This document shows positions 8,122 through 29,517 of a stretch of DNA of 64,000 nucleotides, piece after piece. The notes beneath the pieces are model-generated. The model searched no databases and was not told the origin of the DNA. It saw nothing but the letters and a program-made list of their open reading frames with translations. Both the position numbers and the translations under genes were made by a program. The stretch lies in the NCBI RefSeq assembly GCF_008973825.1, contig NZ_WCHR01000016.1, forward strand, positions 310,001-374,000. Direction: 5' to 3'. Position 1 is the first letter of the stretch. Every line of letters begins with the position of its first letter. The DNA is from Gemmobacter serpentinus (GTDB lineage Bacteria > Pseudomonadota > Alphaproteobacteria > Rhodobacterales > Rhodobacteraceae).

Positions 8122-10602
<2,481 letters not shown>

Positions 10603-10639: not shown

Positions 10640-10669
10640 GGGCGGCACCGGGAACGGTGCCGCCCTTTT
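10640..10669. terminator. Bidirectional terminator between gyrB and the NRPS gene
   Basis: An 11-bp perfect stem (GGGCGGCACCG, 10640-10650, with CGGTGCCGCCC, 10555+100 to 10665) closes a GGAA loop. TTTT follows on the plus strand. It stands between the convergent ends of gyrB and the synthetase gene, whose stop codon is at 10669-10671. Confidence 0.85.
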
Positions 10670-13600
10670 CATGTGTCGTGTTTCAGGCGCGTGGCCAGAT
10701 CAGCCGCAAGCTGCGCCACATTGCGATCCTCAAGGATCGACAGGTGATCACCGGGGATGTCGATCAGCTTGACCTCGCCGGTCGCAACCTGCGACCAGCC
10801 CAGCATGGTGCGCCGGGCCTCGGCACTGTCCCAGAAACTTTCTGCGGCGCGATAGACGATGATCGGGGCACCATAGGGCTGTGCCTGATACAGATCGACC
10901 GCCCGCACATTGGCAAGAACCAGATTGGCCCCGGTCACCTCGCCCGGCGGGGCAGAGGCCAGATCACGTTCGATCTGCCGGTTCTCGCGCTTGTAGCGCA
11001 ATACGCGGGAGATATGGCCGATACCGTGACGCCGGATTTCGCCCAGATGGGCCGCGATCTTGTCTAGGCCATGGCGTGACGGGCGCCCGCCCGGACCCAT
11101 GGCATCCAATACCGCAAGGAAGCGCACCTCGCGCCCGGCGCGCTGCAACAACTGCCCCAGTTCAAAAGCGAAATAGGCGGCCATGGATACGGCGATCAGT
11201 GCCACTGGCCCCTCTGGGAAGGCGCGCTGGATATCATCGAAATAGCGCCGCGCCATGCGTTCGACGCTGATTTCATCCAGATTCTTCGGCGGGCCCGATG
11301 TCAGTCCGTAAACCGGATAATCCGGACCAAGCCGGGCCGAAAGCGGCCGGAACAGGGCCTCTTTCTCGCCCAGAACATGGATGGCAAAGAGCGGGATCTG
11401 CGCCCCTTCGGGCTGGATCGGCACCACAAAGCGCGGTTCGTCGCCATCGGCTTCAAGAAAGCGCGCAAGGCTGCGCGGCGTCGGATGACGATAGAGGTCG
11501 GTGGTGACCACCGTGCGACCAAACCGTGCCTCGATCACCGAAGCAAGGCGCAGCGCCATCAGCGAATTGGCACCGTGATCGCGAATGTCGTCATCGGCGC
11601 GCAGATGCGGGGCATCCAGCACCCGCGCCATGCAGGACAGCAACGCGAAGGTCAGGCTGTCCATCGGCCCGTCCTCATCCGTGCCGGGGCCGCCGGGGGC
11701 CGCTGGGCGGGGCAGGCGGGCAGTATCGACCTTGCCATTGGGGCGCAGGGGAAAGGCCTCGACCGGCAGGATGATCGGCAGGGTCGCGCCTGACATATAG
11801 CGCGCGACATGTTCCACCAGCGCGGCCAATGCGGGACTATCGGGGCTGAGATCGGGGCCGCAGACCCAGGCGACCAGACGCGCGGCATCGGTATCGGGGG
11901 CGTCGATCCCGACGCGGGCATCGCGCAGGCCGGGAAACTGCATCAAGGCGCGTTCGACATCGCCCAGATCGATGCGATGGCCGCGCAGCTTGACCTGCCG
12001 GTCGCGCCGGCCAAGAAAGCGCAGATGACCCTCGGCATCCCAGGACGCGCGGTCGCCGGTATTGTAAAGCCGGGCCGGCGGCGCGCGGAACGGATCGACG
12101 ATAAAGCTGCGGGCGGTAATATCAGGGTGATTGAGATAGCCCGCCGTTACCGCAGGGCCACCGATGAACAGATTGCCATCCGCGCCCATCGGCGCAAGGC
12201 TGCCGTCAAAGGCCAGAATATGGGCGCGGGCATGGGCCATCGGGCGGCCGATCGGCACTTCCGTCAGGTCGGCAAGCGGCGCGCCCGCCAGATCAGGGGC
12301 GTGCAAGGTGCAGGTGATTGTCGTCTCGGTCGGTCCATAGCCGTTCATCCAGGCAGTGCCAGGGGCCAGGATCTGCCAACGCGCAAGGGCTGCGGCGGAA
12401 ATGCGTTCGCTGCCGGTGATGACAAGGCGCACCGAAGGTGGCAGGGGCAGGGCGCGGGCGTCCATCTCTTCCACCAGCAGGTGCCAGAAGCTGGCGGGCA
12501 GGTTCAGGACCGTGACGCCCTGCCGCGCCACCACATCAAGGAAGGCCTGAACCGAGGCGGTTTCTGCATCATCGCGCAGGATCAGCGTGGCCCCGGCCAG
12601 CAGCGTCGGCACGATCTCTTCCAGCGCCACGTCAAAGCCGGGGGCCGCGAAATGCAGCACCTTGTCGGTGGGTGTCAGGCCGAAGGCCGCAATCGCCGCC
12701 GAGGCATGGGCCGACAGCGCGCCGGTCGTGCCCATCACGCCTTTGGGGCGCCCGGTGGAGCCAGAGGTGTGGATGATATAGGCCAGCCGGTCGGCCTGCG
12801 GGGCCGCGCGGCGCGGCGGTGCTTCGCTGGTGGCCGTATTCGGCACCAGCAGCGGCACGCCAAGGCCCGCAATCCCGTCGCGGCCGATCACCGCAATCGC
12901 CCCGGCCTCGGTCGCGCGCAGACAGCGTTCCACCTCGGGCAAGGCGGGGTCCAGTGGCAGGAAGGCCGCGCCGGTTTTCAGAACCGCCAGCAGCGCCACG
13001 ACGAAATCGGGCCCGCGCGGCAGGTTCAGCGCCACCACGCTGCCGGGGCGCGCGCCCTGTTCCTGCAAACGATGCCCCAGATTATTGGCCCGCAGATAAA
13101 GTGTCTGGTAATCCAGCGCGGTGCCGGTCGCCTCGGATTGCAGCGCGATGGCAGTCGGGGCCGCCTCGACCGCCGCCTCGAACCGGGTGGCGATACAGGG
13201 TGGCGCATCGGGAAGAATCTGCGCAGGTTCGCCCAGAAGCATCAGCCCCGCCCGTTCGGCCGGATCCAGCATGTCCAGCTGTGACAGAGGTGTTTCGGGA
13301 TCGGCCGCGCCGATACTGTCCAGAAGGCGCAGGAAATGCCCGGCGATCCGGTTCAGCTGCGCCTCTGGCAAGGCGGCGGAGTCATATTCAAACAGGATCT
13401 CCAGCCGGTCGCGGCCATAGATCGCCAGTGTCAGGGGCATATCGCCCTCTTCCAGCAGGCTGGCCTCGCGCGTGGTCCAGGCGGGATCGGCCTGTTGCAG
13501 CAATGTCGGCAGATTGGCGGGCGAATAGACCAGCACCGAATCGAAGATCCGTGCGCCTGCACCCAGATCGGCCCATTTGCGGATGTCGCGCAATGTGGTG

Positions 13601-14631
13601 CCATGATGGGGGCGCAGGGCCTGCGTCTCGCTGCGGGCCTCGGCGATCAGGTCGCGCAGATTGCTGGCCTGTGCCGGATGCAGGCGCTGCGGCAGCGTGG
13701 CAATCAGCGCGCCAACCGTGCGGCTGTGATCGGGAAACAGCGACCGCCCGGCCAGGGTCAGGCCGAAGGTCGCGTCGCCCCGCCCGGTCCAGCGTGCAAG
13801 GACCAGGCTCCAGGCGGCCTGCAACGCCGCAAAAAGGCCTGCGCCGCAGCGATTGGCCTGCTGATGCAGCAAATGTGTCCGTGCCGCATTCAGTTCAAGC
13901 CGCAAGACCGACATGCGCCCGGTGGCGGCGACCGGAATGGAGAGAAGATTGCCACTTTCGAAATCCGCAAATCGTTCGGCAAAGAAGGCCTGCGCGGCGG
14001 ATATGTCGGATTGTGCGAGGGCTGCGTGAAAGGCGCGCAGCCCGGCGTCCTGCCGGGGCGGCAGATCGCGTCCCTGCAGCAGCCAGACCAGTTCCTCCAT
14101 CAGCACGGCCATGGCGGGCAGATCAAGCAGGGCGTGATGCGCGGTAAACAGCAGCCACAGGCCTGGCCCCCCTGTGGCATAGCTGACCCGCCAGCCGCCC
14201 CGCGCCAGATCGATGCCGCGCGCGCGATCCGCGCCCAGAAGGTCCGACCGCTCGGCTTCGGATTGCGGATGGGAGCAGATAGTGGTCTCGGGCGCGAAAT
14301 CCGGCATAATCCGCCAGATCGCCGTCCCATCACCCGTCACTTCGGCAACAAGGCGCAGGGCCGTATATCGCTGCGCAATCGTTTGGAATGCGCCCGTGAT
14401 TTGCGCATCATCGGCCATGATATCTGGCAGATGCAGCACGATCTGTTCCAGATTGGCCCAGGGTGCCCCGCCAGAGCGCGCCGCCATGATCATCGCTTGT
14501 TGAAAGGCGGTGGGGGTCAGAAAGGGGCTGTCACCCGTGGTGCATGGCGGCGCGGAATCTGCGGCCCCGCCGTCTGTCACCGGACCGGCGACCGTTGTCG
14601 CAGGCCGGTTTTTGTTAACGAAAACAGTCAC
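10669..14631 (-). CDS. One-module nonribosomal peptide synthetase, C-A-PCP-TE
   Basis: The protein is 1320 aa. The condensation domain (about 35-445) has HHALLDL at 165-171, where the usual HHxxxDG ends in Leu. The adenylation domain (about 475-975) has A3 HTSGSTGRPKG (621), A5 NGYGPTE (763), A7 YNTGD (856), A8 (873-888) and Lys967 in A10. By hand alignment to GrsA the specificity residues read D-V-E-N-V-T-G-I-T-K. The carrier domain has Ser1023 in DHGANSLMAL. The thioesterase (about 1070-1320) has its nucleophile in AVSMA (Ser1149) instead of GxSxG, Asp1176 and His1296. No phosphopantetheinyl transferase, MbtH or further module is nearby. The product is unknown. Confidence 0.92.
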   Translation of the reverse strand: MTVFVNKNRPATTVAGPVTDGGAADSAPPCTTGDSPFLTPTAFQQAMIMAARSGGAPWANLEQIVLHLPDIMADDAQITGAFQTIAQRYTALRLVAEVTGDGTAIWRIMPDFAPETTICSHPQSEAERSDLLGADRARGIDLARGGWRVSYATGGPGLWLLFTAHHALLDLPAMAVLMEELVWLLQGRDLPPRQDAGLRAFHAALAQSDISAAQAFFAERFADFESGNLLSIPVAATGRMSVLRLELNAARTHLLHQQANRCGAGLFAALQAAWSLVLARWTGRGDATFGLTLAGRSLFPDHSRTVGALIATLPQRLHPAQASNLRDLIAEARSETQALRPHHGTTLRDIRKWADLGAGARIFDSVLVYSPANLPTLLQQADPAWTTREASLLEEGDMPLTLAIYGRDRLEILFEYDSAALPEAQLNRIAGHFLRLLDSIGAADPETPLSQLDMLDPAERAGLMLLGEPAQILPDAPPCIATRFEAAVEAAPTAIALQSEATGTALDYQTLYLRANNLGHRLQEQGARPGSVVALNLPRGPDFVVALLAVLKTGAAFLPLDPALPEVERCLRATEAGAIAVIGRDGIAGLGVPLLVPNTATSEAPPRRAAPQADRLAYIIHTSGSTGRPKGVMGTTGALSAHASAAIAAFGLTPTDKVLHFAAPGFDVALEEIVPTLLAGATLILRDDAETASVQAFLDVVARQGVTVLNLPASFWHLLVEEMDARALPLPPSVRLVITGSERISAAALARWQILAPGTAWMNGYGPTETTITCTLHAPDLAGAPLADLTEVPIGRPMAHARAHILAFDGSLAPMGADGNLFIGGPAVTAGYLNHPDITARSFIVDPFRAPPARLYNTGDRASWDAEGHLRFLGRRDRQVKLRGHRIDLGDVERALMQFPGLRDARVGIDAPDTDAARLVAWVCGPDLSPDSPALAALVEHVARYMSGATLPIILPVEAFPLRPNGKVDTARLPRPAAPGGPGTDEDGPMDSLTFALLSCMARVLDAPHLRADDDIRDHGANSLMALRLASVIEARFGRTVVTTDLYRHPTPRSLARFLEADGDEPRFVVPIQPEGAQIPLFAIHVLGEKEALFRPLSARLGPDYPVYGLTSGPPKNLDEISVERMARRYFDDIQRAFPEGPVALIAVSMAAYFAFELGQLLQRAGREVRFLAVLDAMGPGGRPSRHGLDKIAAHLGEIRRHGIGHISRVLRYKRENRQIERDLASAPPGEVTGANLVLANVRAVDLYQAQPYGAPIIVYRAAESFWDSAEARRTMLGWSQVATGEVKLIDIPGDHLSILEDRNVAQLAADLATRLKHDT

Positions 14632-14795: not shown

Positions 14796-15671
14796 CTATT
14801 CGGCGGCAAGCGCGCCGCCACCGCAGGCGAAGCCCCGGGCAATCTCTGCGATCACCCCTGTCATCAATCTGCGGAAGGCGTCGAAATCAGGGCGTTTTTC
14901 AATGCGGGCTTCGTCCATATATAGGCTGCGGTCAATCTCGATCTGGATGGCGTGCTGCCTGCGCGACGGGCGACCATAGGTCTGGGTGATATAGGCACCG
15001 GCAAAGGGGGCGTTGCGGCTGACACGCAGGCCGGCGCTTTGGAAGGCGGCTTCGATCCGGCCGGTGATGTCGCGCCCGGCTGCGGCCCCGAAGCGATCAC
15101 CCAGCACCACCTCCGGTTGGGGACTGCCGGGGCGGCCATGCATCTCGATCGCCTCATGTGGCATCGAATGGCAATCGATCAGCACGGCGCTGCCAAAATG
15201 GCGATGCGTCTCGTCCATCAGGGCGCGCAACGCGGCGTGATAGGGGTGCCAGAAACGCGTCAGCCGCTCATCCGCCTCGGAGCGGGCGATCTTGCCACGA
15301 TAGATCGGACGGCCCTGCGCGACCACGCGGGGAATCACCCCCAAGCCGGATGAGATGCGCGGATTATGTGGTGGCCGCGAGACGCCCTCGATCAAGGCCG
15401 GGTCCAATTCATCCGGGGCGCGGTTCAGATCCAGCCAGGCGCGCGGGGCATGTGCCAGCAGCAGCGGCGCGCCATGATCGGGGGCGGCTGCAAACAGGTC
15501 GTCCACAAAGGCATCCTCGGAAGACCGGATCAGCCGCGAATCGAGCTCGCTGCGCGCAAGGAAGGTTTTGGAATAGGCGCGACCGCTATGGGGCGATGAA
15601 AAGATCAACGGTTCCGTCTGCTGGACGGGACGGATCAGGTCATAGACTTCTGTTGCGGTGCGGAATGACAT
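14796..15671 (-). CDS. N-formylglutamate amidohydrolase family protein
   Basis: This 291-aa metallohydrolase-like protein belongs to the FGase family, whose known member HutG releases glutamate and formate from N-formylglutamate in histidine breakdown. Family features are FSSPHSGRAY near the N-terminus (the metal-ligand region), LDLNRAPDELDP, and VLIDCHSMPHE near residue 160. No other hut genes are in the window. It precedes the synthetase gene on the same strand with a 164-bp gap, so co-transcription is possible but not shown. The actual substrate may differ from formylglutamate. Confidence 0.88.
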   Translation of the reverse strand: MSFRTATEVYDLIRPVQQTEPLIFSSPHSGRAYSKTFLARSELDSRLIRSSEDAFVDDLFAAAPDHGAPLLLAHAPRAWLDLNRAPDELDPALIEGVSRPPHNPRISSGLGVIPRVVAQGRPIYRGKIARSEADERLTRFWHPYHAALRALMDETHRHFGSAVLIDCHSMPHEAIEMHGRPGSPQPEVVLGDRFGAAAGRDITGRIEAAFQSAGLRVSRNAPFAGAYITQTYGRPSRRQHAIQIEIDRSLYMDEARIEKRPDFDAFRRLMTGVIAEIARGFACGGGALAAE

Positions 15672-15816: not shown

Positions 15817-15891
15817 GGGCGGTTAGCTCAGCGGTAGAGCACTACGTTGACATCGTAGTGGCCACTGGTTCGATCCCAGTACCGCCCACCA
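15817..15891 (+). tRNA. tRNA-Val (anticodon GAC)
   Basis: The acceptor stem GGGCGGT (15817-15823) pairs with ACCGCCC (15881-15887), and ACCA is encoded at 15888-15891. The D arm contains TAGCTCAGCGGTAGAGC. The anticodon stem CTACG/CGTAG closes the loop TTGACAT, giving anticodon GAC for valine codons GTC and GTT. The T arm is CTGG-TTCGATC-CCAG. All arms pair fully. Confidence 0.95.
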
Positions 15892-16413: not shown

Positions 16414-17028
16414 ATGATGCGCCTGTTCCATTCACCGACCTCGCCCTATGTGCGCAAGGTCATGGTGGCGCTGATCGAGACCGGGCTGTTGCCGCGGGTC
16501 GATCTGGTGCCGGTGTCGGGCACGCCGGTCGCACCGGATGCCACGATCATCGCGCAGAACCCCCTGGGCAAGATCCCCGCGCTGGAGCTGGACAGTGGCG
16601 AGGTGATCTATGACAGCCGCGTCATCTGTCGTTGGATCGATATGCAGGCGGGTGCCGGGCTTTATGGCGCGGGCGATGTGGAATGGTCGGTGCTGACTCT
16701 GGAGGCCACGGCGGATGGGATCCTCGATGCGGCCCTTCTGATGGTTTACGAATGGCGTGTGCGCCCCGAGGACCGGCGGCATTCCCCATGGGTCGAGGGG
16801 CAATGGGGCAAGATTGCCCGGGCGCTGGACATGCTGGAAACGCGCTGGATGGGCCTGCTGAACGGGCCGCTCAACATGGGGCAGATCGCGGTGGGGGCAG
16901 CGCTCAGCTATCTGGATTTCCGCCATGGCGACCGCAGCTGGCGTGCCGATCACCCCCATCTTGCCGCCTGGGAGGCAGAGTTTTCAGGCTGCCCGGCGAT
17001 GCTTGCAACGCGCCCGCCGGTGGCGTGA
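16414..17028 (+). CDS. Glutathione S-transferase family protein
   Basis: This 204-aa protein has an N-terminal thioredoxin-like GST domain (MRLFHSPTSPYVRKVMVALIETG, then NPLGKIPALEL and the glutathione-contacting turn VIYDSRVICRWID), followed by an all-helical C-terminal domain. Ser9 or Ser/Tyr near residue 10 is the likely thiol-activating region. ATGs at 16414 and 16417 are both possible, with GGGAG just upstream. Bacterial GSTs of this type conjugate or reduce electrophiles; the substrate is not predictable. It stands alone between rpmJ and the bc1 operon. Confidence 0.9.
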   Translation: MMRLFHSPTSPYVRKVMVALIETGLLPRVDLVPVSGTPVAPDATIIAQNPLGKIPALELDSGEVIYDSRVICRWIDMQAGAGLYGAGDVEWSVLTLEATADGILDAALLMVYEWRVRPEDRRHSPWVEGQWGKIARALDMLETRWMGLLNGPLNMGQIAVGAALSYLDFRHGDRSWRADHPHLAAWEAEFSGCPAMLATRPPVA

Positions 17029-17305
17029 ATCAGGGATAAAACGACAGAAAAACAGTCGGGAAATAGGTATCTGAAATACCGGATTTTATCGTGCTGCATG
17101 GGCTGTTAGCGCCGTCATAGGAAGGGTGGGGCGCGCCTTCAAGGTCACACAGGGACAAAACCGTGGCTTCCTGACACCTGCGCGGCTTTGACCGCTGGAC
17201 GTAACAACACCGCTTGGCTAAAACCCGCCCATCAAGGTGTCGGGAAACCGCCGCCCAGATTTTGCATGGGTCGCAATGAGGCGGCCCTTGAGAGGGAGAA
17301 GATCC

Positions 17306-17866
17306 GTGTCCCACGCAGAAGATCACGCAGGCACCCGCAGGGATTTCCTGTATTATGCGACGGCCGGGGCCGGCGCGGTTGCCGCCGGCGCCGCTGTCTG
17401 GCCGCTTGTGAACCAGATGAATGCCTCCGCCGACGTGCGCGCCCTTGCCGCGATCTATGTCGACGTCTCCGCTGTTGCCGTGGGCTCGCAACTCACCGTC
17501 AAATGGCGCGGCAAGCCGGTATTCATCCGCCGCCGCACCCCGGAAGAGATCGAAGCCGGTCGTGCCGTTCAGCTTTCTGACCTGATCGACACCCATGCGG
17601 AAAATGCCAACAAGCCCGGGGCCGATGCCAAGGACGAGAATCGCACCCTTGATGAAGCCGGCGAATGGCTGGTGATGCTCGGGGTTTGCACCCATCTCGG
17701 CTGCGTGCCGCTCGGCAATGGCGCGGGCGAGTTCGGCGGCTGGTTCTGCCCTTGCCACGGGTCGCATTACGATACCGCAGGCCGCATCCGCAAAGGACCC
17801 GCGCCGCGCAATCTCGATGTTCCGCAGGCGCAGTTCACTGACGCAACCACCATCCTGCTGGGCTGA
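17306..17866 (+). CDS. petA: Ubiquinol-cytochrome c reductase Rieske iron-sulfur subunit
   Basis: This 186-aa subunit of the bc1 complex carries the 2Fe-2S cluster that accepts electrons from ubiquinol. The start is GTG at 17306, after GAGGGAGAA; from there the protein reads [15 protein letters not shown], very like Rhodobacter Rieske proteins, while a longer ATG frame from 17237 is not conserved. The RRDF twin-arginine motif (11-14) precedes the single membrane anchor. Cluster ligands are Cys128/His130 (CTHLGC) and Cys148/His151 (CPCHGSH), with the Cys133-Cys150 disulfide. It is first in petABC (fbcFBC). Confidence 0.97.
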
Positions 17867-17878
17867 GGAGAGACAGAC

Positions 17879-19189
17879 ATGGCCGGTATTCCGCACGACC
17901 ACTACGAGCCCAAGACGGGCATCGAGAAGTGGTTGCACGTACGCCTTCCCATCGTCGGGCTTGTCGTAGATTTCGTGACCTTCCCCACCCCCAAGAACCT
18001 CAACTGGATGTGGATCTGGGGCATCGTTCTGACCTTCTGCCTTGCGCTGCAGATCGTGACCGGCATCGTGCTGGTGATGCACTACACCCCGCATGTCGAT
18101 CTGGCCTTTGCCTCGGTCGAACATATCATGCGGGACGTGAATGGCGGTTGGGCCATTCGCTATCTGCACGCCAACGGCGCCTCGCTGTTCTTCGTGGCCG
18201 TCTACCTGCACATCTTCCGTGGTCTGTACTACGGGTCCTACAAGGCCCCGCGCGAAGTGACCTGGATCATCGGGATGATCATCTATCTGGTGATGATGGG
18301 CACCGCCTTCATGGGCTATGTTCTGCCCTGGGGCCAGATGTCCTTCTGGGGCGCGACCGTGATCACCGGCCTGTTCGGGGCCATTCCCGGCATCGGGCCG
18401 TCAATCCAGGACTGGCTGCTGGGCGGGCCTGCCGTCGACAATGCGACGCTGAACCGCTTCTTCTCGCTGCACTACCTGCTGCCCTTCGTGATTGCCGGTC
18501 TGGTTGCCGTTCACTTCTGGGCCTTCCACACCACTGGCAACAACAACCCGACCGGGGTTGAAGTGCGCCGCACCTCGAAAGAGGAAGCCGCGAAAGACAC
18601 CGTGCCGTTCTGGCCCTATTATGTGATCAAGGACCTGCTGGCACTGGCCGTCATCATGGTGGTGTTCTTCGCCATCGTCGGCTTCATGCCGAACTACCTT
18701 GGCCACCCGGACAACTATATCGAGGCGAACCCGCTGGCGACGCCTGCGCATATCGTTCCGGAATGGTATTTCCTGCCCTTCTACGCCATCCTGCGCGCCT
18801 TCACGGCCGATGTCTGGGCGGTGCAGTTCGTGCAGTTCATCACCTTCGGCATCGTCGACGCCAAGTTCTTCGGCGTGCTGGCGATGTTCGGCGCGATCGC
18901 GATCATGGCGCTGGTGCCGTGGCTGGATACCTCGCGCGTGCGTTCGGGCCGTTTCCGCCCGATGTTCAAATGGTGGTTCGCGCTGCTCTGCGTCGATTTC
19001 GTGGTGCTGATGTGGGTGGGCGCGATGCCGACCGATCCGCCCTATGACTGGATCTCGCTGGTGGCTGCAACGTATTGGTTCGCCTATTTCCTCATCATCC
19101 TGCCGCTGCTGGGCATCATCGAGAAGCCCCTGCCGCAACCGGCGACGATCGAAGAGGACTTCAAGGCCCATTACCCGGCAGCCGAGTGA
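17879..19189 (+). CDS. petB: Cytochrome b of the bc1 complex
   Basis: This 436-aa membrane subunit has eight predicted transmembrane helices and two b hemes, and forms the Qo and Qi quinone sites. Family features are [20 protein letters not shown], the heme-binding helix with [41 protein letters not shown], and the Qo-site [14 protein letters not shown]. The C-terminus has the last helix pair, [13 protein letters not shown]. The size matches Rhodobacter FbcB. It lies 12 bp after petA. Confidence 0.98.
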
Positions 19190-19206
19190 GAAAGGAACGG
19201 ACGAAG

Positions 19207-19998
19207 ATGCTTCGCAATATCGCAATCAGCGCCGTCTCGGCCCTTTGCCTGATGACGGGTGCCGCTTCGGCGGCTGGCGGCGAAAGCCATATCCCGGATG
19301 TGGATTTCGCCTATGAAGGCCCCTTCGGGACCTTCGACAAGAACCAGCTCCAGCGTGGGCTGCAGGTTTACACCGAGGTCTGCTCGTCCTGCCATGGCAT
19401 GAAATTCGTGCCGATCCGGACGCTGGCCGACGAGGGCGGGCCAGAACTGCCCGCCGATCAGGTGCGCGCCTATGCAGCGGGCCTCGACTCGGTCGTGCTG
19501 CCCAATGGTGATGAGCGCCCGCGCGAATGGACCGACAAGTTCCCGACCCGTTCGGGCGAAGGCATGGGGCCCGACCTCAGCCTGATGGCCAAGGCGCGTG
19601 CGGGCTTTCATGGCCCCTACGGCACCGGCATCAGCCAGTTGGTGAACGGCATCGGTGGCCCGGAATATATCCACGCCATCCTGACCGGCTATACCGGCGA
19701 GGAAAAGGTCGAGGCTGGCACCACCTTCTACGAGAACCACGCCTTCCCGGGCGGCTGGATCGCCATGCCCCCGCCGCTTGCGGCGGATCAGGTCACCTTC
19801 ATCGACGGCCACCCGGCCACGGTGGATGCGATGGCGCTGGACGTGTCGGAATTCCTGATGTGGACCGCCGAGCCAAAGCTGATGGCCCGCAAGAAGATGG
19901 GCTTCGTGGCCGTGATGTTCCTGATCGGTCTGTCGACCCTGCTCTATCTGACCAACAAGAAATTGTGGTCGGGTATCAAGGGCAAGAAGGCCGCCTGA
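19207..19998 (+). CDS. petC: Cytochrome c1 of the bc1 complex
   Basis: This 263-aa subunit passes electrons to soluble or membrane cytochrome c. The start ATG at 19207 gives a Sec signal peptide ([18 protein letters not shown], cleavage near ASAA). The c-type heme site is CSSCHG with Cys59, Cys62 and His63. A C-terminal transmembrane anchor ([16 protein letters not shown]) is followed by a basic tail. It is the last gene of petABC, 17 bp after petB, with a strong terminator beyond it. Confidence 0.97.
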
Positions 19999-24980: not shown

Positions 24981-27900
24981 TCAATGCGCTTCGCCGGGGC
25001 CGAATTCCTTCTCCACTGCGCGGCGATGCAGGGTGTAGGAGGCATCGCTGCGCGAGATCAGCGTGTAGAACATCGGCACCACGAACAGGGTGAAGATGGT
25101 GCCGATCAGCAGGCCGGTGAAGATCACCAGACCCATGGCCTGACGCGCCGCTGCGCCCGCGCCTTCGGCGATGATCAGCGGCACCACCGCCAGCGCCATG
25201 GCGGCGGTGGTCATCAGGATCGGACGCAAACGGGTTTTTGCGGCGGCCACGATGGCCGCACGACGCGACAGCCCGTGCTCCTCACGCTGCTGATTGGCGA
25301 ATTCCACCATCAGAATCCCGTGCTTTGTAATCAGACCGATCAGCGTGATCAGACCAACCTGCGTGTAGATGTTCAGCGTGCTGGCCCCCATGTAAAGCGG
25401 CAGCATGGCCCCGAACACCGACAGCGGCACCGACATCATGATGATGAAGGGATCGCGGAAGCTTTCGAACTGCGCCGCCAGCACCAGATAGATGACGATC
25501 AGCGCCGCACCAAAGGCCAGCAGGATGGTGTTGCCTTCGGTCTTTTCCAGTCGCGACTGGCCGGAATAATCCAGGAAGAAGCCATCGGGCATCACCTCGG
25601 CTGCGATCCGCTCCATCTCGGCCAGGGCGACCCCGGTCGAGACGCCCGGCATCGGCATGGCCGACAGCGTGGCAGAGTTCAACTGATTGAACTGCTCGAT
25701 CGCGGCGGCGGTCACGCCAGGCTCCATCGTCACCACCGAAGACAGCGGCACCATGGCCCCTGACGAGGCGCGCACGAAGAAATCGCCCAGCCGTTCAGGG
25801 TTGTCGCGCCAGTCGCGTGGCACCTGCGTGATGATGTCATAGCTGTTCGAATCGCGGTCGAACTGCGCGATGGCACCGCCACCGACCAGAAGGCCCAGCG
25901 TATTGCCGATCTCGCTGACCGGCACGCCCAGATTGGCCGCGCGGTCGCGATCGATCACCACACGGACCTGCGGCGCGTCAAAGGACAGGCTGTTCTGCAC
26001 CACGATGAACATGCCACTTTGCATGGCTTTCAGCCGCACTTCCTCGGCAATTTCCACCACGCGGTCGGGCGCATGGATCGACTGGATCACCATGGAAATT
26101 GGCAGGCCGCCCCCGGCACCTGGCAGCGATGGCGGTGCAAAGACATAGCCTTGCAGCCCCGGCGCGGTATCCAGCGCGCCCTGAATCTGCGCCTGCAATT
26201 CGGCCTGACTGCGGTCGCGTTCGGACCAGTCCTTCAGCGCCCAGATATAGAAGCCGGTATTGTCCGCCCCGCCCATGCCTGCCACCGAGAACGAGGTCTG
26301 CACCTCGGGGATGTCAGAGGTGCGCTTGCCGATTTCGGCGGTGAAGGCATCGGTATATTCCAGCGTCGCATAGCGCGGCCCGTTCAGGATGGCGAACAGC
26401 GCGCCCTGATCTTCCTCCGGGGCCAGTTCCGACGAGGTGTTCAGGAACATGAATCCCGTGGCACCCAGCAGCGACACCACCATCAAAAGCGTGACGGGCC
26501 GGTAATCCAGCGACGAGGACACCCGCCGCTCATACCAATTGGCGACACCGTTCAGCACCTTATCGACGATCTTCTGGAACCGCCCGGGTGTGCCATGGGT
26601 CAAAAGCCGGGCCGACATGGCCGGGGTGATGGTCAAGGCGACAAGGCCGGAAATCACCACAGACCCTGCCAGCGTCAGCGCAAATTCGGTGAACAGCGAC
26701 CCGGTCAATCCGCCGGTAAAGGCCAGCGGCGCCAGCACCGCGGCCAGCGTGATGGTCATGGCGATGACCGGCCCGGTGATTTCCTTCATGCCGAGGATGG
26801 CGGCACGGGCAGGTGATAGCCCGTCATCGATATGGCGGTGGATGTTTTCCACCACCACGATGGCGTCATCGACCACAAGCCCGATGGCCAGCACCATGGC
26901 CAGCAGCGTCAGCAGGTTGATCGAGTAACCAAGCGCCAGCATGATGGCACAGACCCCGATCAGCGATAGCGGGATGGTGACGATGGGCATCAGCACCGAC
27001 CGGAACGAGCCAAGGAACAGCAGGATCACCACGACCACGATGGCCACGGCCTCGGCGATGGTCTTGAACACCTCGCTGATCGAGGCGGCGATGGTTTCGG
27101 TCGAATCGTAGACCATCTTGATGGTCATGCCCTGCGGCAGCGTGTCGTTCAGCCGTGGCAGTTCCGCCAGCACATTGCCGGCCACATCCAGCTGGTTCTC
27201 GCCCGGGGCGGGAATAATGCCGATGAAGGTGCCGGGCTCGCCCGCGAAGGTCACGATGGCCTCACGCGCGCCGGAGGCAAGCTCCACCTCCGCCACGTCG
27301 CGCAGCCGCACCACGCCGTTCTTGCCCTGCACCAGCGGCAGCGCACCGAAGGCTTCGGCGGTCTGGATGGTGGATTCAAGCGTCAGCGAATAGATGAAAT
27401 ATTCGTTCTCGGTCTTGCCCGGCGCCGACAGGAAGTTCGACGACCGGACCGCTGCCAGAACCTCGGAGGCGGTGACCCCGCGCGCCGAAAGCTGCAACGG
27501 ATCCAGCCAGATCCGCATCGCATATTCCGACGCGCCCATGATCTCCATCTGGGCGACGCCGTCGATATTGGTGACACGCGGGCGCACCACGCGTTCCAGA
27601 TATTCGGTCAGCTGTTCGGGTGTCATATTGGGGTTCTGAACCGCCAGATACATCAGCGCGAAGGTCTGGCCGGTGCCCTTGACGATCACCGGATCATCCG
27701 ATTCCGACGGCAGCTGACCGCGCACCTGCTGCACCTTCGACATCACCTCGGTCAGCGCGATATCGGGGTCGGCCCCCAGCTTCATTTGCACCGTCACCGT
27801 CGAGGATGAAGGGCGCGAGGCCGTGGTCACATAATCGATATTCTCGGTGGTGGAGACCGCCGAGGCGATGGGGGCGGTGATGAAGCCTTGAATGAGATCG

Positions 27901-28067
27901 GGCGCGGCACCCGCATAAACGGTGGAAACGGTGATCACCGTCTCCTCCACCTCGGGGTATTGGCGCACCGGCAGATTGACCACGGCCGCAAGGCCAAGGA
28001 ACAGGATCAGCGCCGCCAGCACCGATGACAGGACCGGGCGTCGGATGAAGATTTCGGAGAAATGCAT
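24981..28067 (-). CDS. RND multidrug efflux transporter, inner-membrane permease (HAE1 family)
   Basis: This 1028-aa proton-driven pump has the twelve-helix RND fold with two large periplasmic loops. It starts MHFSEIFIRRPVLSSVLAAL. The proton relay is visible as IGLVVDDAIVVVENIHRHI in helix 4, with paired Asp. The second half repeats the pattern (MPMPGVSTGVALAEM, then GLITLIGLITKHGILMVEFA). The length fits MexB/AcrB-type pumps for hydrophobic drugs. It follows its adaptor by 14 bp. No outer-membrane TolC-type gene or regulator is adjacent. Confidence 0.95.
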   Translation of the reverse strand: MHFSEIFIRRPVLSSVLAALILFLGLAAVVNLPVRQYPEVEETVITVSTVYAGAAPDLIQGFITAPIASAVSTTENIDYVTTASRPSSSTVTVQMKLGADPDIALTEVMSKVQQVRGQLPSESDDPVIVKGTGQTFALMYLAVQNPNMTPEQLTEYLERVVRPRVTNIDGVAQMEIMGASEYAMRIWLDPLQLSARGVTASEVLAAVRSSNFLSAPGKTENEYFIYSLTLESTIQTAEAFGALPLVQGKNGVVRLRDVAEVELASGAREAIVTFAGEPGTFIGIIPAPGENQLDVAGNVLAELPRLNDTLPQGMTIKMVYDSTETIAASISEVFKTIAEAVAIVVVVILLFLGSFRSVLMPIVTIPLSLIGVCAIMLALGYSINLLTLLAMVLAIGLVVDDAIVVVENIHRHIDDGLSPARAAILGMKEITGPVIAMTITLAAVLAPLAFTGGLTGSLFTEFALTLAGSVVISGLVALTITPAMSARLLTHGTPGRFQKIVDKVLNGVANWYERRVSSSLDYRPVTLLMVVSLLGATGFMFLNTSSELAPEEDQGALFAILNGPRYATLEYTDAFTAEIGKRTSDIPEVQTSFSVAGMGGADNTGFYIWALKDWSERDRSQAELQAQIQGALDTAPGLQGYVFAPPSLPGAGGGLPISMVIQSIHAPDRVVEIAEEVRLKAMQSGMFIVVQNSLSFDAPQVRVVIDRDRAANLGVPVSEIGNTLGLLVGGGAIAQFDRDSNSYDIITQVPRDWRDNPERLGDFFVRASSGAMVPLSSVVTMEPGVTAAAIEQFNQLNSATLSAMPMPGVSTGVALAEMERIAAEVMPDGFFLDYSGQSRLEKTEGNTILLAFGAALIVIYLVLAAQFESFRDPFIIMMSVPLSVFGAMLPLYMGASTLNIYTQVGLITLIGLITKHGILMVEFANQQREEHGLSRRAAIVAAAKTRLRPILMTTAAMALAVVPLIIAEGAGAAARQAMGLVIFTGLLIGTIFTLFVVPMFYTLISRSDASYTLHRRAVEKEFGPGEAH

Positions 28068-28081
28068 GACCCAACCCGCCC

Positions 28082-29188
28082 TTATTCGCCCGCCGCCGCG
28101 TTCAGCGGCACCGAGTTGTCGATCTGCACCCGCGCGCCAGAGGTCAGGCGGTTCTGGCCCGAGGTCACGATCTCGTCGCCGGCAGCGATCCCCTTGACCA
28201 CCTCGATCCGCGCGCCGGAGCGGCGGCCAAGTGTCACGAAGACCTGTTCGGCCTTCAATTCATCGGCGGCCTCGCCCTCACCCTTGCGGATGACATAGAT
28301 CGAATCGCCATAAAGCGAGGAGGCGACAGCGGTTTGCGGCACCGCAATCACGCCTTCCTCGCTGGGCAGCGCGATGCGCACCCGCAGGAATTGCCCAGGA
28401 TAGAGCTTGCCGGAGGTATTCTCTACCTCGGCGCGCACGGTGACCAGACGCGAATTCGGATCGACCTTGGGCTCGATGGCGATGATCTGGCCTTTGGCGC
28501 TGAGATCGCCGACCTCGGAGGTGACGCTGACCGCGCCGCCCAGTTTCATATCGGCGATGCGCTGTTCCGGCACCGCGAAATCGACGCGCATCTGATCCAG
28601 ATCCTGCAGGGTCGCATAGACCGTGCCGGGCGAGACATATTGCCCAACCTCGATCTGCGGGATGCCGATCACGCCCGCGAAGGGCGCGGTCAGTTGTTTT
28701 TGATCCAGCGCGGTCTGCATCTGTGCCACCTGTGCGCGGGCGCTTTCGGCCTGCGCATCGGCGCTTTCCACGGTGGTCGCGGCCCCCACGCCACGATCCG
28801 ACAGGGTTTTCGCGCGCTTGGCTTCGGCCAGCGCGACATTCAGCGAGGCCGAAGCCGCCGCCAGTGCCGCGCGTTCGCTGTCATCATCGATCTGCACCAG
28901 ATGCTGCTTCTGGGTGATGGTGTCATTGCCTTTGAACAGGATCTCGCGGACCACGCCGCCGGATTCGATCGCCAGATCGACGCCGCGCGCGGACAGGGCG
29001 GTGCCGACGGCCTCAATGCCCGGCTCCCATGTGACCGCCTCGACGGTTTCGGCGTTCACCGCCACCGGCGGGGGCACCATGCCTGACAGGAACTGGGCGA
29101 TCATTCCATCGCGGAAGTATTTGAACCAGACGATCCCACCCACAACAAGGCCAAGTAGAACGATCGCTATGGCGAGCCGCTTGAACAT
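28082..29188 (-). CDS. RND efflux periplasmic adaptor (membrane fusion protein)
   Basis: This 368-aa adaptor links the pump to an outer-membrane channel. It has one N-terminal membrane helix (LAIAIVLLGLVVGGIVWF), a lipoyl half-domain, an alpha-helical hairpin (LAAASASLNVALAEAKRAKT to ARAQVAQMQTALDQ), the second lipoyl part QLTAPFAGVIGIPQIEVGQY, and beta-barrel and membrane-proximal domains. The start at 29188 has AGGAG upstream on the minus strand. The upstream frame to 29230 is less likely. It is co-transcribed with the permease. Confidence 0.94.
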   Translation of the reverse strand: MFKRLAIAIVLLGLVVGGIVWFKYFRDGMIAQFLSGMVPPPVAVNAETVEAVTWEPGIEAVGTALSARGVDLAIESGGVVREILFKGNDTITQKQHLVQIDDDSERAALAAASASLNVALAEAKRAKTLSDRGVGAATTVESADAQAESARAQVAQMQTALDQKQLTAPFAGVIGIPQIEVGQYVSPGTVYATLQDLDQMRVDFAVPEQRIADMKLGGAVSVTSEVGDLSAKGQIIAIEPKVDPNSRLVTVRAEVENTSGKLYPGQFLRVRIALPSEEGVIAVPQTAVASSLYGDSIYVIRKGEGEAADELKAEQVFVTLGRRSGARIEVVKGIAAGDEIVTSGQNRLTSGARVQIDNSVPLNAAAGE

Positions 29189-29517
29189 CCGGTTACTCCT
29201 GCAATTGCCATGTGGCACCGGATCGCGCAATCCGGCCTTCAGGTGCTTGTAAGCCCCGGACAGCTGTCCAAGTCAATTCACTCTTGCATCCCCGCAGGCA
29301 AGATTGCGGTCAGATATGGCCAAATCAGCCCAAGTTTAGGCGATTGGTGCGGCAATCGGTTGGTCTGGCCGGGCTTTGCCGTGATGTGACTGCGCGCAAA
29401 GGGGGGGCGGAGTGATCATGTGGGCTGTGATATGGGGGCGGGCTTGCGGCCCCTCTTGCGGAAAGGTAGTCGCTTAGGTAATAGTTATGATATAACATAT
29501 CAGTTTGTGAGGCCCTG
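29189..29517. other. 329-bp divergent intergenic region (RND operon / COG0523 gene)
   Basis: No gene is seen. It must hold promoters for both directions. It contains a perfect 12-bp palindrome, GGACAGCTGTCC (29258-29269), 70 bp before the adaptor start, which could be a repressor site for the pump. It also contains the Zur-like palindrome at 29484-29496. A run of seven G occurs near 29401. Confidence 0.6.
29484..29496 (+). promoter_or_regulatory. Zur-like operator before the COG0523 GTPase gene
   Basis: GTTAT-GAT-ATAAC is a perfect inverted repeat with a 3-base spacer, 21 bp before the start codon. It matches 12 of the 13 positions of the Zur core GTTATAnTATAAC. COG0523 metallochaperones are frequently Zur-regulated. 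The site would overlap the promoter and block it when zinc is sufficient. This is a motif match by eye. Confidence 0.6.

Follow-up and report, generated by a model that had tools for sequence, protein, structure and literature searches.

Probable link of a single-module nonribosomal peptide synthetase gene of Gemmobacter serpentinus to a conserved exopolysaccharide pathway of the Rhodobacteraceae

Gemmobacter serpentinus carries, next to gyrB, a gene for a nonribosomal peptide synthetase (NRPS) that consists of one module with condensation (C), adenylation (A), peptidyl carrier (PCP) and type I thioesterase (TE) domains. The gene lies in a 64-kb stretch of contig NZ_WCHR01000016.1 (positions 310,001 to 374,000), called here the window, and the contig is C10 of a 4.26-Mb genome, G000. 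The link between the family of this module and an exopolysaccharide pathway is well supported by the gene content of the carriers and by the neighbourhoods of the module. Related to this, the gene of the window is read, with a probability that we put at about 0.55, as a detached, trans-acting accessory module of a conserved Rhodobacteraceae exopolysaccharide pathway that combines a polyketide synthase (PKS), NRPS functions and a Wzx-type flippase, for which it would make an aminoacyl-containing substituent. Judged by its domains, the protein is an ordinary termination module, and the unusual trait is its association with a polysaccharide locus.

Co-occurrence with the exopolysaccharide locus

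The genome of G. serpentinus contains an exopolysaccharide locus (G000:C10:42872-73044; L141 and L142), called here the main locus, on the same contig as the module (C10:320.7-324.6 kb) and about 250 kb away from it. Besides the PKS, the flippase and several genes of polysaccharide synthesis (Table 1), it contains carrier proteins and a protein that we call the partner, composed of a formyltransferase (FT), an A domain split by a luciferase-like monooxygenase (LLM) and a PCP (FT-A-LLM-PCP). The PKS reaches 595.8 bits with the Pks13 model, below the cut-off of 2100. The gene order of the main locus is kept in G005 and, edges excepted, in G003; much of it is kept in G161 and G432, where the flippase would be expected at about the end of the fetched stretch.

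In a draw of 394 Rhodobacteraceae genomes, nearly one for each genus, 13 matches to the module were obtained at E <=1e-100. One of them (G344, 3.3e-107) was rejected as an orthologue because it is one stretch of a 3426-residue multi-module frame, which leaves twelve single-module carriers. The partner was found in 145 of the 394 genomes, among which are all twelve carriers and not G344; the hypergeometric p value of this 12/12 overlap is 4.6e-6, assuming independent genera. In a hand-picked set the partner is present in 38 of 40 genomes and in 35 of the 36 carriers. The sole carrier without it is G434, whose copy of the module has two in-frame stops and which was also the only genome without a match in a flippase search of 20 genomes (19 matched). 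Three of the four non-carriers of the set (G003, G006 and G009) have the partner and the fourth, G421, which belongs to a genus with 13 carriers among 16 genomes, has no partner and only a 37% flippase match. Loss of the locus coincides with loss or breakage of the module in two genera, by one genome in each (G421 and G434). In G434 (L107) the broken module and the unmatched partner and flippase look as if the pathway were being lost jointly.

Physical linkage to flippase and polysaccharide genes

The neighbourhoods of 40 loci from 39 genomes were compared with a simple, purpose-made gene caller, after L031-L034 had been dropped as duplicates of L106, L050, L116 and L048. The gene family that stands out near the module is a Wzx-type oligosaccharide flippase (PF13440; the best NCBIfam match, MOP flippase, is below threshold). 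In 18 of the 40 loci it is the gene immediately upstream, in the same orientation and with a gap of -124 to +36 bp, and in 23 it occurs within the fetched stretch. In genus g152 all 13 carrier loci show this linkage. A whole-genome search of G161, from the same genus, returned a single close flippase, which is the neighbour of the module (the other match is 25% identical). The PKS locus of this genome is on another contig.

In several genomes the surroundings are richer. The one-strand run of G152 (L056), in which most genes overlap, consists of PKS, glycosyltransferase, partner, a short frame, the module and a glycosyltransferase, and it adjoins homologues of the flippase, Wzz, sugar transferase and two more glycosyltransferases of the main locus found in the window's genome. 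G152 has two FT-A-LLM-PCP copies (G152:C6 and G152:C47), and the module stands beside one of them. In Paracoccus tibetensis the module has a Wzz homologue on one side and a WecG-type transferase on the other, after which come flippase, PKS and, further on, the partner. In G639 (L118), of the same genus, the module adjoins homologues of Wzz, ParA, the sugar transferase and the flippase, with the partner less than 10 kb away. Plasmids of P. liaowanqingii and P. marcusii (L170, L171) show the order glycosyltransferase, module, WecB/TagA/CpsF transferase, flippase, PKS, glycosyltransferase, MupA/Atu3671 protein, interrupted by other genes.

In the gene tree the window gene groups with the copies of G005 and G010, and this group shares a clade (SH-aLRT support 100) with the Tabrizicola copies and those of P. 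tibetensis, G525, P. liaowanqingii and P. marcusii. Near kin of the orphan gene thus reside in the locus, as the P. tibetensis, P. liaowanqingii and P. marcusii members of this clade show. G639, which forms a very long branch, G537 and G646 fall outside this clade. In the tree, L117 was marked as lying in the main locus on the basis of its flippase and sugar genes, its partner being on another contig.

Distribution and conservation of the family

Orthologues of the module are about 35-63% identical. The module occurs in 13 of 16 genomes of genus g152 and in three of four of the genus of G204 (Tabrizicola oligotrophica), where one copy, that of G434, carries two in-frame TAG codons. When an orthologue served as query, 17 of 390 genomes drawn from across the order matched at 1e-150, and a scan of named genomes, which needs exact short peptides and is insensitive, gave four loci, all from Rhodobacteraceae or Paracoccaceae.

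Of the 40 loci, 39 were aligned, L107 being omitted for its stops. The positions of the A-domain specificity code, which we take to map onto GrsA as assigned here, read DVENVTGITK in the window module. Positions 235, 239, 278, 331 and 517 (D, E, N, T and K) are invariant in 39/39, and the overall code of the family is D, V or I, E, N, two variable residues, mostly G, mostly I, T and K. The natural reading of this invariance is a single substrate, so that one amino acid would be common to the whole family. The PCP serine and the Ser, Asp and His of the TE are equally invariant (39/39). As for the C domain, the second histidine of its HHxxxDG motif is kept in 37 of the 39 members. These 37 score at least 460 bits with a profile built from them, against 24.5 bits for G010, a congener of the window species, while G639 is missing from the hits. 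The two species either do without condensation or have genes in decay; the A, PCP and TE motifs are intact in both.

The module as an enzyme

The four Pfam domain matches of the window protein are all above the gathering score in an intact frame, in agreement with the earlier note, which had described from the DNA alone a one-module NRPS next to gyrB whose catalytic domains look complete. The C motif HHALLDL departs from HHxxxDG in its last residue, where G is replaced by L, and keeps HHxxxD; the PCP serine and the Ser/Asp/His triad of the TE are present. Within the A domain the AMP-binding match of Pfam covers residues 484-833 (5e-67). Amino-acid loading on the PCP and release by the TE would follow from this domain content.

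Among the NCBIfam models shown, the general adenylation-domain model alone is above its cut-off. The enzyme-specific models remain below it: MxcG with 387 bits (cut-off 2300), EntF with 247.5 (cut-off 2400) and DltA with 176.2 (cut-off 476). The solved relatives are ordinary NRPS modules, including the single modules SrfA-C, AB3403 and EntF (phmmer 3.6e-103, 2.5e-71 and 2e-69, respectively). PvdL, McyB and tyrocidine synthetase 3 are the best-scoring solved sequences for the C domain, and these do not settle its subtype, including whether it is of the starter type found in lipo-initiation. The G+C content of the gene is 66.3% (75% at third positions) against 63.6% for the window, so its composition is ordinary, and the long frames on the opposite strand were judged to be shadows in G+C-rich DNA.

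Plasmid-borne copies

Plasmid records matched at 1e-100 number 63, of which 50 are from Phaeobacter, 5 from Paracoccus, 3 from Sulfitobacter and 5 from Mycetohabitans. These last five were rejected as orthologues, being ordinary NRPS with 29-30% among those listed. The Phaeobacter plasmids among the matches listed measure 68-71 kb. The tblastn piece of P. inhibens spans A-PCP-TE only, yet the C domain is present (596 bits in strain P92). In the two Phaeobacter plasmids viewed a polysaccharide pyruvyl transferase and a glycosyltransferase of the GT4 family precede the module, and an amino-acid ATP-binding cassette (ABC) transporter and YjbF/YjbH follow it. Further along from the module P92 has a sugar transferase, an export protein and rml (rhamnose) genes; the near neighbours are the same on the plasmid of strain 2.10. 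On a Sulfitobacter plasmid the module is followed by rfbC, rfbB and rfbD. The invariant code positions and catalytic residues are all kept in the five plasmid copies that were read. The binding protein and permease of the ABC transporter beside a Phaeobacter copy (L169:20194-22417) match best as parts of a cystine transporter, below cut-off.

One of these copies appears to have been catalogued already. The accessible part of PMC4062626 lists an NRPS, Inhi_3983 / PGA2_71p110, on 69- and 71-kb plasmids of P. inhibens without a product, and places a homologue on the chromosome of DSM 17395, where it is reported as PGA1_c28490. The gene PGA2_RS19315 of the 70,384-bp plasmid of strain 2.10, which is probably PGA2_71p110, shares with the window module the layout, a near-identical A code and the active sites.

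Proposed role and alternative explanations

In the proposed role the A domain would load one amino acid, identical across the family, onto its own PCP. The C domain would then, in most members, join the amine of this amino acid to an acyl group held by another carrier, possibly that of the main-locus PKS; C domains at the N-terminus usually accept their acyl group from a separate carrier. Finally, the TE would unload the aminoacyl product on a sugar of the repeat unit while this is lipid-linked at the inner face of the membrane, and the Wzx flippase would afterwards move the decorated unit outward. The domains, the conserved active sites, the co-occurrence and the linkage in relatives are observed, whereas we infer which amino acid is loaded, what donates the acyl group, which sugar accepts the product and in what order the steps proceed; transfer to a sugar is suggested by the polysaccharide gene context. 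Pks13 gives the best sequence matches of the TE in the Protein Data Bank (3e-14), at low identity. This likeness is only a hint, because the TE model (mean predicted local distance difference test score 74) matches other types about as well, cyclising and hydrolysing thioesterases included.

Several observations weigh against this proposal. In the window there is no physical linkage of the module to the main locus, and nothing related to polysaccharides adjoins it; 17 of the 40 loci, the window included, have no flippase in the fetched stretch, although some stretches are short. The Paracoccus-genus copies of G537 and G646 adjoin the flippase only, with the partner on another contig. The p value of 4.6e-6 overstates the association, since genera are not independent, and the partner search omitted the carriers G426, G428 and G429 and the non-carriers G427, G433 and G436. 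The main locus is far commoner than the module (145 against 12 of 394 genomes) and, with the partner also present in the non-carriers G003, G006 and G009, the module must be regarded as optional. The fold match of the TE does not single out sugar-transferring enzymes, as Pks13, EntF, AB3403 and others lie within about 2 Z units. Besides, the catalytic histidine of the C domain has been lost in 2 of the 39 members, G010 and G639, so the condensation step is not universal.

The earlier note had named a small acyl-amino acid, a dipeptide or a signal molecule as a possible product, and a stand-alone synthetase of this kind, making a diffusible product released by hydrolysis and with no tie to polysaccharide, is a less likely rival. 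It is consistent with the absence of a flippase from the fetched stretch of the window and 16 other loci, with the amino-acid ABC transporter after both Phaeobacter copies viewed, and with the C-A-PCP-TE layout shared with AB3403, whose pathway is called uncharacterized in the part of PMC8150014 available. However, the genomic context of the family points to surface polysaccharide: the partner accompanies every carrier of the 394-genome draw and nearly every hand-picked one, and in several genera a glycosyltransferase or flippase gene directly borders on the module or overlaps with it. A different departure from the proposal, which we hold to be unlikely, is that the C domain is not a working condensation site and that the A-PCP-TE core places one aminoacyl group on an amine or hydroxyl of a sugar, as in the D-alanylation of teichoic acids. 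G010 and G639, having lost the C motif while keeping the invariant A-code positions, the PCP serine and the TE triad, speak for it, whereas the histidine is retained by the great majority of members and the long branch of G639 may reflect decay.

It is very unlikely that the module serves a further NRPS assembly line encoded elsewhere in the genome, such as a siderophore pathway. Large NRPS frames do exist on contigs C26, C51 and C56, and C26 has matches to MbtH and to a 4'-phosphopantetheinyl transferase (PPTase); nevertheless, the gene calls of the 40 stretches include no NRPS besides the partner, except the second piece of the broken G434 copy, the further A-like frames being two weak ones of 571 and 449 residues, and the factor common across genera is the flippase/PKS locus. 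That the gene is a functionless relic in the window species is hardly credible, given its intact frame, its catalytic residues and its ordinary base composition, even if its distribution is patchy (3 of 11 genomes of the genus) and the G434 copy has stop codons.

The accessory role in exopolysaccharide synthesis can also be put in a stronger form, which we regard as speculative and improbable as a whole: the TE of an NRPS unloads onto a lipid-linked sugar before Wzx flipping, the aminoacyl group becomes a covalent part of the biofilm exopolysaccharide, and the module that brings this about is portable and often plasmid-borne. In its boldest version the amino acid would be cysteine and the slime thiol-bearing, for which there are hints only. 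One is the sub-threshold cystine-importer score of the transporter beside the Phaeobacter copy; another is the A code ending in GITK, which we take to resemble a fungal cysteine code. On the other hand, the code given for the cysteine enzyme PchE in the available text of PMC11253843 (DLFNLSLIWK) is unlike that of the family.

Genomic setting in the window and in the genus

The module stands alone between gyrB and an N-formylglutamate amidohydrolase-like gene (Table 1). A scan of the adjacent genes showed neither a donor carrier nor a second module, and no MbtH or PPTase. Matches to MbtH (one, G000:C26:21409) and to PPTase (two, C26:18719 and C30:72264) lie elsewhere in the genome. The earlier note's picture of an undecayed single module that needs parts made elsewhere is thus borne out, together with the lack of a second module, MbtH and PPTase nearby. 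Its statement that transporters are lacking too needs a correction: the window does contain an AcrB-type resistance-nodulation-division (RND) pump with its adaptor (24981-29230, about 10 kb from the module, with no demonstrated link), and the flippases of other loci show that such an absence is not a trait of the family.

Table 1. Features of the window, of the main exopolysaccharide locus and of two divergent family members. Plain positions refer to the window.
Feature	Location	Strand	Description
Single-module NRPS, C-A-PCP-TE	10669..14631	-	1320 aa, GTG start, intact open reading frame
C domain	13243..14511	-	residues 41-463; PF00668, 6.9e-35; motif HHALLDL
A domain	11713..13182	-	about residues 484-973; PF00501 and TIGR01733
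PCP domain	11455..11643	-	residues 997-1059; PF00550 (PP-binding), 7e-14; serine kept
Type I TE domain	10699..11394	-	residues 1080-1311; PF00975, 5.2e-14; Ser/Asp/His kept, AVSMA replaces GxSxG
gyrB (context)	8152..10602	+	TIGR01059
N-formylglutamate amidohydrolase-like gene (context)	14796..15671	-	PF05013; matched in 11/11 genomes of the genus
tRNA-Val(gac) (context)	15817..15891	+	
Glutathione S-transferase (GST), Rieske protein and cytochrome b run (context)	16414..19189 (16414-19998 in the comparison with L050 and L106)	+	about 2 kb from the module
Flippase	main locus, C10:65060-66418		
Partner (FT-A-LLM-PCP)	main locus		1523 aa; monooxygenase of MupA/Atu3671 type
Type I PKS	main locus		2129 aa; own TE
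Other genes	main locus		several glycosyltransferases, WecG/TagA/CpsF-type transferase, ParA-like ATPase, Wzz, sugar transferase
Candidate O-antigen ligase/polymerase	main locus		547 aa, sub-threshold match
Members with decayed C domain	L049:7969-11586 (G010); L118:8039-11164 (G639)		

Long residence in a dnaA-gyrB core region, which had been suggested from the position of the gene, was rejected. Carriers within the genus amount to 3 of 11 genomes including the window species (3 of 9 among nearly complete ones), and the comparison of synteny places the module beside different genes in each of the three, which goes against a core fixture. In G005 its neighbours are a CobB/CobQ-like gene and a 722-residue protein without a Pfam match; in G010 they are a TetR regulator, a periplasmic binding protein and the two genes of an RND pump. 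The pump and adaptor directly beside the module in G010 (L049:2813-7084) are homologues of those of the window, on a contig that differs from that of its amidohydrolase-like gene. The amidohydrolase-like gene and the tRNA-Val are present in all ten other congeners, and gyrB was not found beside the former in any of them (about 1-12 kb viewed on the relevant side, only 1 kb in G004), so the contact with gyrB is seen in this species only. Loss from most close relatives together with decay here had been named in the earlier note as counter-evidence; the module was not found in 8 of the 11 genomes, but decay here is not observed.

The orthologue lies at, or very close to, the GST-bc1 run in Tabrizicola oligotrophica (G204) and in two of its congeners, G434 and G435, and a position near these genes may therefore be older than the contact with gyrB. 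The coordinates of the GST-Rieske-cytochrome b run next to the orthologue are L050:11897-15443 and L106:11971-15467 (T. oligotrophica and a congener).

Implications and comparison with known systems

If it is true that one widespread set of genes, with its marker in 145 of 394 family genomes, builds and decorates a surface polysaccharide, the product should be sought in the slime and not in culture extracts. The main exopolysaccharide locus, with its PKS and FT-A-LLM-PCP protein, deserves study in its own right. Targeted deletions have been made in Phaeobacter, as described in the available part of PMC11481893, and the module, being optional, single and present in that genus, offers a clean experimental handle. 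Besides, the Phaeobacter plasmids carrying it are close in size to a known 65-kb biofilm replicon. The accessible portions of PMC4062626 and PMC8273931 count Phaeobacter and Paracoccus genes for PKS and NRPS among the secondary-metabolite genes without a known product. In open-access text, judged mostly by titles and the starts of abstracts, no report was found that joins an NRPS, a flippase or glycosyltransferase and exopolysaccharide in Rhodobacteraceae, nor were A-code strings found in print in open-access text; within the same scope, no earlier report was found of an NRPS termination module belonging with a polysaccharide locus.

The four domains and their order are identical in the window module and in EntF, SrfA-C and AB3403 of Acinetobacter. 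Unlike EntF-type modules, that of the window has no adjoining donor carrier or partner gene, and the context of its family is one of polysaccharide genes. Regarding the TE, Pks13 releases its product on polyols, with preference for trehalose, according to the part of PMC9210659 available; it differs from the window module in joining fatty acids and not amino acids, and the identity between the thioesterases is low. A further point of comparison is the Dlt system (DltA, DltC and DltB), which D-alanylates teichoic acids by means of separate adenylating and carrier proteins and a membrane acyltransferase, with neither a C nor a TE domain. The likeness is that an adenylation activity and a carrier would place an amino acid on a surface polymer, whereas the window module has A and PCP in one chain and stays below the cut-off of the DltA model.

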